Of a stretch of DNA of 64,000 bases, positions 61,333 to 62,740 are shown one piece after another. The position numbers were made by a program, and so were the translations under genes. A model generated the notes under the pieces. That model ran no database searches, had not been told where the DNA came from, and worked only from the letters and a program-made list of their open reading frames with translations. How positions within the stretch are numbered: position 1 is the first letter of the stretch; each line of letters begins with the position of its first letter. Source of the stretch: an uncultured Fodinibius sp. (GTDB lineage: Bacteria; Bacteroidota; Rhodothermia; Balneolales; Balneolaceae); NCBI GenBank assembly GCA_913056455.1, contig CAJXMJ010000002.1, positions 186,001-250,000 on the forward strand. The letters are read 5' to 3'.

Positions 61333-62229
61333 ATGGCGCAAGTAATTACATCTGCAGATCAAATTGATTTCACCGTTGATGAACGTCCATCCATGCCGTT
61401 ACCTACCGAGGTGCTCATGGTACGCCCCCTGCACTATTCTGTAGATTATGTTATTAATCCCCACATGGCGGACCAAGTAGGCAAAGTTGATAAAATTGAA
61501 GCCAACAACGAGTGGAATCTCGTACGATCGCTTTTCGATCAAATTGGGATGAACATCCACGTTATTGAAGATCAGGAAGGACTGCCGGATATGGTGTTCT
61601 GTGCTAATCAGAGCTTACCCTATATCGACGAAGATGGTAACGAGCATGTATTTATGAGCATCATGCATGCCGATGAACGCAAAGATGAAGTCCCATACAT
61701 CGAGCAGTGGTATCGGCAGAATGGCTATGAAATTCACTACTTAGATGAAGATAAAATTAGTGATTTCGAAGGATGTGGCGATGCCATATGGCATACCGGA
61801 AAACGTCTGTTATGGGGTGGATATGGTTATCGTTCTTCATTAGACGCCTATGAAACTATTTCTGATACTTTTGACGTACCCATTTTAGCTCTCGAACTCG
61901 TTGATGAATCATTCTACCATCTGGATACCTGCCTTTGTGTATTGGATGAACATACCGCCCTTATTTATCCCGAAGCTTTTACAGATGAGGGACTCGAGAT
62001 GATTAACAAAATGTTTGATACGGTGATCCAAGCATCCAAGTATGAGGCCGAAGAACTTTTTGCCTGTAATGCTTCGTGCCCTGATGGTCGGAATGTGATT
62101 ATTCAACAAGGCTGTACCGATGTAAATAAAAATCTGCGCGATAATGGATTTTCTGTTCACGAAGTAAGCACCTACGAATATCTCAAAAGCGGCGGAAGTG
62201 TCTTTTGTATGAAGATGTTGCTGTGGTAG
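61333..62229 (+). CDS. Amidinotransferase/dimethylarginine dimethylaminohydrolase-like enzyme
   Basis: 298 residues of the guanidino-modifying superfamily with beta/alpha propeller fold. VFCANQSLPYID (the FxxN region), EGCGDAIWHTG, catalytic His196 (SFYHLDTCLCVL) and nucleophile Cys292 in GGSVFCMKM. Could hydrolyse methylarginines, arginine or ornithine-type substrates; specificity not readable. The gene ends directly before the left repeat of the four-helix-bundle cassette. Confidence 0.82.
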   Translation: MAQVITSADQIDFTVDERPSMPLPTEVLMVRPLHYSVDYVINPHMADQVGKVDKIEANNEWNLVRSLFDQIGMNIHVIEDQEGLPDMVFCANQSLPYIDEDGNEHVFMSIMHADERKDEVPYIEQWYRQNGYEIHYLDEDKISDFEGCGDAIWHTGKRLLWGGYGYRSSLDAYETISDTFDVPILALELVDESFYHLDTCLCVLDEHTALIYPEAFTDEGLEMINKMFDTVIQASKYEAEELFACNASCPDGRNVIIQQGCTDVNKNLRDNGFSVHEVSTYEYLKSGGSVFCMKMLLW

Positions 62230-62232
62230 TAG

Positions 62233-62264
62233 GTGTTGAGGTTCGAAGTGCTATAGTTTCGAAG
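62233..62264. repeat. Left TTCGAAG repeat cluster of the four-helix-bundle cassette
   Basis: GTGTTG, then TTCGAAG at 62242-62248 and again at 62258-62264, between the stop of the arginine-type hydrolase and the stop of the four-helix-bundle gene. It reads in inverted orientation relative to the cluster at 62719-62740, allowing for the palindromic TTCGAA core. Confidence 0.65.
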
Positions 62265-62270
62265 TTTACC

Positions 62271-62639
62271 TCATCTATTATTCCTCAAATATTTAATGAG
62301 AGCCAGAGTTAGATTCCTGGCGTCACTTGCTTTGCTATACACTTCTTCCAAATCACTTTTATTAATATATTTCTGGTCATAAGCCACATAAAGCAAGCTT
62401 TTTACTTCTTCACAAGAACTTTGGGTATAATCCAAAAACCTTATAAACTCTTTTGATGAATATCGAGCGAAGCCTTCAGAAATATTCGTCATAGCAGAAA
62501 CTGATGCTCTTTGAATTTGGTCTCGTAATCCAAAATCTTTCCGAAACTTTGGCTTTTTAGTCAATTCATAAACTTGGTAGACTAATTTTCTCGATTCTTT
62601 CCAACAATCTAACTTTTCAAACTTTTTTACAGTCGACAT
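62271..62639 (-). CDS. Four-helix-bundle protein (23S rRNA intervening-sequence protein family)
   Basis: 122 residues. KKFEKLDCWKESRKLVYQVYELTK, then FRKDFGLRDQIQRASVSAMTNISEGFARYSSKEFIRFLDY, are the S23/IVP family blocks. Family members occur inside 23S rRNA intervening sequences and, as relatives, as accessory proteins (Avd) of diversity-generating retroelements; most stand-alone copies have no known role. Here it is bracketed by TTCGAAG repeats and separates two unrelated + strand genes. A hairpin AAGGTTTAT/ATAAACCTT (62647-62655, 62679-62687) lies just upstream of its start. Confidence 0.88.
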   Translation of the reverse strand: MSTVKKFEKLDCWKESRKLVYQVYELTKKPKFRKDFGLRDQIQRASVSAMTNISEGFARYSSKEFIRFLDYTQSSCEEVKSLLYVAYDQKYINKSDLEEVYSKASDARNLTLALIKYLRNNR

Positions 62640-62646
62640 TTTACAG

Positions 62647-62687
62647 AAGGTTTATCGTTCTTTAGAAGTAAGATCATTATAAACCTT
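62647..62687 (-). promoter_or_regulatory. Leader hairpin of the four-helix-bundle gene
   Basis: AAGGTTTAT (62647-62655) and ATAAACCTT (62679-62687) are perfect 9-bp arms around 23 bases, starting 8 bases upstream of the gene's ATG. It could fold in the mRNA leader or act as an operator. Confidence 0.45.
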
Positions 62688-62718
62688 AATCCTTACAGTG
62701 GAACTGAACTTCAATACT

Positions 62719-62740
62719 CCAACACTTCGAAACTTCGAAC
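62719..62740. repeat. Right TTCGAAG repeat cluster of the four-helix-bundle cassette
   Basis: CCAACA, then CTTCGAA at 62725-62731 and 62733-62739, ending 4 bases before the ATG of the CPXCG gene. A weaker CTTCAA unit lies at 62709. Uses the same words (GTGTTG, TTCGAAG) as the left cluster on the opposite strand. Confidence 0.65.

Follow-up and report, generated by a model that had tools for sequence, protein, structure and literature searches.

Inverted short-repeat arrays bracket IVP-family genes in Balneolaceae and point to a family of small mobile elements

Why does a gene of the 23S rRNA IVP family, in a 64,000-nucleotide stretch of DNA from an uncultured Fodinibius sp. (the window, from genome G000), lie between two protein genes with inverted repeats at both of its sides, and do the gene and its repeats travel together? 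The identity of the parts, as given in a preliminary description, was borne out by profile searches: the 122-aa product of the gene at 62271-62639 (- strand) matches PF05635 with 111 bits against a cut-off of 33.8 (E 3.8e-32) and TIGR02436 with 104 bits against a curated cut-off of 24 (E 3.9e-30), the solved structures 2gsc and 2rld belong to its relatives, and the neighbors described as an arginine-type hydrolase and a cysteine-rich protein were found as DDAH/ADI-family and Cys_rich_CPXG proteins, respectively. The features of the locus are as follows.

61333-62229: DDAH/ADI-family hydrolase, left neighbor
62233-62264, + strand: left terminal array of four 8-mers, GTGTTGAG, GTTCGAAG, TGCTATAG and TTTCGAAG, pointing inward
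62271-62639, - strand: IVP gene (23S_rRNA_IVP, four-helix bundle; PF05635, TIGR02436)
62669-62697, - strand: promoter-like site TGTAAGGATTAAGGTTTATAATGATCTTA, 29 nt upstream of the IVP ATG
62709-62740, - strand: right terminal array, reading as reverse complement GTTCGAAG, TTTCGAAG, TGTTGGAG and TATTGAAG, pointing inward
62744, ATG: gene for the Cys_rich_CPXG (CPXCG) protein, right neighbor

The ends had been read as inverted clusters of TTCGAAG units; the inversion and the clustering are real, but each cluster is an array of four degenerate 8-mers that end in AG; the two arrays face inward around the IVP gene, the left one starting 3 nt past the DDAH stop codon and the right one ending 3 nt ahead of the CPXCG ATG. 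The arms are imperfect repeats, with a best inverted alignment between the arrays of 28 nt. Four copies of TTCGAAG do lie no more than 500 bases apart near the IVP gene (62242 and 62258, + strand; 62725 and 62733, - strand) where about 0.09 would be expected (P ~2.5e-6, or ~3e-4 when corrected for all such windows), but the count in the whole window is 12 versus 11.35 expected by chance, the genome has a single instance of the doubled motif and the units are specific to each locus, so that TTCGAAG was dropped as a hallmark or genome-wide marker. A perfect 9-bp hairpin is indeed present upstream of the gene (62647-62655 with 62679-62687); it shares sequence with the promoter spacer, and the G008 ortholog does not keep its arms, so we do not count it as part of the element. 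A stable stem formed by the whole element was also rejected, its single-strand fold being unremarkable (z -1.6, DNA parameters), which weakens a simple stem-loop role.

IVP genes are present in 41 of 58 related genomes, with a maximum of 15 per genome, and when their flanks are read in these relatives, as the preliminary description had suggested, inverted 7-8-mer arrays are found at most loci; what is not kept is the sequence of the units, which differs from locus to locus (e.g. TGAGTCC, TTAGACC, GACTGAC and GTGTAAAG) and is common to both ends of one locus. To quantify the inversion, we aligned the flank on one side of each gene locally with the reverse-complemented flank on its other side and kept the best score. 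In 20-kb Balneolaceae regions 28 of 49 IVP genes (57%) score 26 or more versus 1.8% of 679 other genes, in a comparison that uses crude gene prediction (longest ATG frames) and includes loci that share a site and are non-independent. At a score of at least 36 the figures for the same regions are 33% and 0.3%. In a wider sample that covers numerous Bacteroidota and a handful of other phyla, a score of at least 26 is reached by 56 of 78 IVP loci (72%) versus 2.1% of 284 random placements. On plasmids, nine of ten IVP genes (eight cyanobacterial and one from Riemerella) score at least 29, with arms of near-perfect to degenerate 7-mers, e.g. TAGGGAG, of the kind called STRR; the cyanobacterial plasmid genes have the tandem intergenic 7-mers that define the STRR type, and the window has an 8-mer form. 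These comparisons of flanking sequence show that the arrays bracket IVP genes specifically.

Arrays are also found far from IVP genes, are common without IVP in some genomes, and can be abundant in genomes that lack PF05635 (G053, G054), and thus can persist or spread without an IVP gene; such arrays may be derivatives of the element or independent of it. Genome-wide counts of AG-pattern arrays correlate weakly with IVP number (Spearman 0.36-0.44) and were set aside, the reversed control being high as well because the units contain GA. Two short palindromes (L084 1926-1996 and L085 13032-13113) each consist of a pair of inverted arrays and lack an IVP gene; they are possible deletion derivatives of the element. 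An apparent polysaccharide region in one relative (G003:C2:95000-118000; L091, L092) has intergenic DNA packed with diverse 7- and 8-mer arrays and other repeats.

The history of the window locus can be followed in the five genomes that keep the DDAH-CPXCG synteny (G000, G008, G009, G002 and G003). The IVP gene is present in G000 and G008 (92% identical), a truncated remnant in G009, and missing in G002 and G003, where the gap is filled by other 7-8-mer arrays and, in G003, still contains the old right array. An IVP gene of the window clade also adjoins DDAH in G017, from another genus; its side and orientation match those in the window, its inverted arrays are of another type (GTACTA), and it has a promoter-like site. 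In the comparison with close relatives that had been proposed as a check for an empty site, the gene is thus gone in G002 and G003 and present in G008; with G017 included, this occupancy makes the insertion probably an ancient one that is now decaying within the window genus, and not a recent arrival. A second copy in the window genome (L002 1501-1791, i.e. G000 C1:66425-66715), with GGTTGAG/GGCTAAG arrays and an exopolysaccharide export-like gene as neighbor, is broken by two TGA stops; intact copies of this type with matching arrays are present in G005 and G010.

At orthologous sites identified through flanking homology, clean empty sites with neither gene nor arrays are found for site B in G008 and site C in G003, while at site A old arrays outlast the IVP gene. 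In the IVP tree, genes from the same site cluster across genera, which indicates that most copies are old residents; likewise, many sites are occupied across genera, so movement is rare. It does occur: one G004 copy (L139) nests inside the site-B clade, and when it is aligned with L137, which occupies site B in that genome, homology extends over left array, promoter, gene and right array and ends at the outer array ends, junctions being placed at the level of arrays in diverged relatives whose arrays are degenerate. A G003 copy at a new site (L095) nests in the site-C clade, site C itself being empty in G003, and the sister of the window clade in G006 has octamers of the same TTCGAAG type and occupies a different site, next to a malate-dehydrogenase-like gene. 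In 6 of 26 occupied pairs at shared sites, spread over four sites, the element is flipped in place. In a test restricted to intergenic flanks, 24 of 29 comparisons found an arm closer to its partner within the element than to the opposite arm of the element at the shared site (p=1.3e-4), evidence that the two ends turn over together. The earlier proposal that gene and repeats form one moving unit is thus upheld by empty sites that lack both and by a relocated copy that is homologous from array to array. Taken at the level of sequence, these comparisons show that array, gene and array are gained, lost and relocated as one piece, that the two arms change sequence together, and that residence at one intergenic site is very long, loss frequent, flipping in place occasional and movement rare.

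A link to cellular function comes from the promoter-like site. A search for the pattern TGTAAGGA-N16-TCWTA gives 14 sites in G000 and between 10 and 19 in every genome of the genus, versus 0 in a reversed control; outside the family there are almost none, and G015 has none. The site at 62669-62697 (-) upstream of the window IVP gene conforms to this pattern, and a promoter-like site is also present in the G008 ortholog sequence. In G000, the pattern precedes ssb, recA, recN, radC, a ComM-type gene (YifB/ComM) and a ComEA-type HHH gene, with further sites before an integron-integrase N-terminal domain gene and others; in relatives it is also found before comEC, recQ and a secreted-nuclease-like gene, these being named from translations. 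Using a weight matrix built from non-IVP sites, we found the promoter at 19 of 54 Balneolaceae IVP genes (35%) versus 9 of 1169 others (odds ratio 70, p=3e-21). The comparison shows that about a third of the family's IVP genes, the window's included, use the predicted promoter of the recA/ssb/recN/radC/comM/comEA-like genes, and this sharing of a promoter between IVP genes and DNA-uptake and repair genes is new here. One copy of TGTAAGGA-N16-TCTTA (G000 C2, ~580,000) lies between an ECF sigma gene (L191 955-1500) and the TPR/anti-sigma-like gene that follows it (1594-2421), making this sigma gene a candidate regulator of the recA/ssb/recN/radC/comM set. We infer a putative competence/recombination regulon, labeled so because of its member genes, that would be driven by the adjoining ECF sigma gene. 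ComEC is nearly universal among the genomes, so that no correlation with IVP could be obtained and this comparison was rejected as uninformative.

Putting these observations together, we estimate a probability of about 0.5 that segment 62233-62740 belongs to a widespread family of small elements in which the IVP protein joins the ends and host recombination moves the unit. Such an element would consist of an inverted 7-8-mer array, a promoter, the IVP gene and a second inverted array. We know of no nuclease or polymerase domain and no catalytic motif in IVP; with no such domain known, strand breakage would have to come from the host. Its homology with Avd and the Xcc0516 pentamer suggests that the IVP protein would be a ring-shaped nucleic-acid binder: IVP relatives form pentamers and the relation to Avd is likewise reported (PMC4990558, PMC10053308), and 2gsc is a structural match to the window protein. 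It would bind the AG-spaced units, either as ssDNA or as paired arms, and bring the ends of the element together; the host recombination machinery would then copy, flip or insert the element in competent or DNA-repairing cells. Counting against this reading are the arrays that persist without IVP, the rarity of movement, and a promoter that is confined to a third of the IVP genes and that some elements have beyond the array.

The main rival, which we regard as unlikely, is that the element acts at the level of RNA, its arms pairing in a read-through transcript as happens in the 23S intervening sequences (IVSs) excised by RNase III; the arrays would then have a part in RNA processing instead of DNA mobility, and insertion into or next to an operon would be nearly harmless. 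In its favor, the 23S IVSs that carry an S23p ORF end in complementary sequences and are substrates of RNase III (PMC4990558), and several cyanobacterial plasmid IVP genes do lie inside operons, between nrdB and nrdA (on the opposite strand), cas10 and cmr3, and cas6 and cas4 (L278, L283, L285). However, the window and most other copies that have the promoter carry it inside the arrays, so that the IVP mRNA would be without one arm; moreover, the fold of the window element is unexceptional, and flips in place and relocation from array to array favor DNA. The evidence thus speaks against RNA as the sole role.

A more improbable alternative reverses the order of events: arrays that arose earlier by polymerase slippage would be the target, and IVP genes would enter intergenic DNA that is rich in arrays or persist better there. 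The frequency of arrays without IVP in some genomes and the arrays of site A that outlive their gene are consistent with this, but inverted pairing is at least 30 times as frequent at IVP genes as at the other genes of the array-rich regions compared, the clean empty sites B and C have no arrays, and the relocated copy carried its arrays along. Slightly less probable again is that IVP has been domesticated as a DNA-uptake or repair accessory protein under selection, the arrays being relics of an old mobile origin; the sites conserved across genera with open frames and the promoter of the recA/ssb/comM regulon fit such a role, whereas frequent losses, broken copies (L002, G009), turnover from site to site and up to 15 divergent copies per genome do not. 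Least probable is that IVP elements are cargo mobilized in trans by a reverse transcriptase (of a diversity-generating retroelement or group II intron) or by a Y1/RAYT transposase, since, although Avd of diversity-generating retroelements resembles PF05635 (PMC10053308), the RAYT/REPIN layout of a gene with dispersed palindromes is similar and Y1_Tnp genes occur in some genomes, profile matches revealed neither RVT_1 (PF00078) nor Y1_Tnp (PF01797) in G000, neither of them in G002 and G017 (5-8 IVP genes), no Y1_Tnp in G006 and G008, which are IVP-bearing like the foregoing, and no RVT_1 in G014, G020, G027 and G032 (11-13 IVP genes), so that we reject either enzyme as a requirement for keeping the elements.

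If the IVP gene and its arrays form one mobile element, as we favor, several known systems resemble it in part. To our knowledge, IVP/S23 proteins and heptanucleotide STRR arrays have been described for decades with no assigned function, and we know of no settled account of the origin of 23S intervening sequences. The 23S rRNA IVS with an S23p/IVP ORF (Leptospira, Coxiella) is an insert of ~0.4-0.5 kb with complementary ends (PMC4990558), and like it the window element has an IVP-family ORF in a short insert with inverted ends; it differs in standing free between two protein genes instead of in a 23S rRNA helix, in having ends of degenerate 7-8-mer arrays and an ECF-type promoter of its own, and in reaching 15 copies per genome. 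The STRR of cyanobacteria, GGGAATC of Xanthomonas and TAACTGA of Beggiatoaceae are tandem 7-mer arrays that lie in intergenic DNA next to ORF ends and in some cases form inverted pairs (PMC4692102, PMC4679880). In Nostoc and its relatives such arrays form the arms of plasmid IVP genes, and the Xanthomonas and Beggiatoaceae repeats are likened to IVP arrays from published descriptions; those two papers make no link to IVP, whereas here the arrays are the ends of an IVP element. In the open-access literature we found no paper linking IVP genes with inverted arrays. RAYT/REPIN systems share the gene flanked by inverted short repeats and the gene-less repeat copies elsewhere, but IVP elements have no Y1 transposase, fixed repeat sequence or IVP catalytic motif. 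Avd has a homologous four-helix-bundle fold (PMC10053308), but in diversity-generating retroelements it accompanies a reverse transcriptase, for which G000 has no match. Unlike a MITE or insertion sequence, the units differ between loci and there is no common terminal inverted repeat.

Treating the gene and its inverted arrays as one element, together with the promoter that it shares with recA, ssb and comM in this family, makes array binding by IVP, and movement or flipping in competent cells, testable. More tentatively, and with rather less than even confidence, we suggest that IVP genes with inverted STRR-type arrays may represent a phylum-spanning class of mobile element that would employ host competence and recombination instead of a transposase, with IVP as the end-binding protein; if this is true, 23S IVSs and part of the unexplained bacterial STRR arrays would be its derivatives.

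A stand-alone integron-integrase N-terminal domain of 117 aa (L185 1119-1469, - strand; also L159 and L165) is kept in several species and has the same promoter as recA, ssb and comM. Y1_Tnp genes are found directly downstream of this promoter-like site at G004:C17:44657-45001, G004:C67:42711-43055 and G003:C36:109633-109878, so other mobile genes seem to use the regulon as well. A small GIY-YIG-nuclease-like gene (L147 5508-5826, - strand) has both strongly inverted flanks, with a score of 60, and the promoter-like site.
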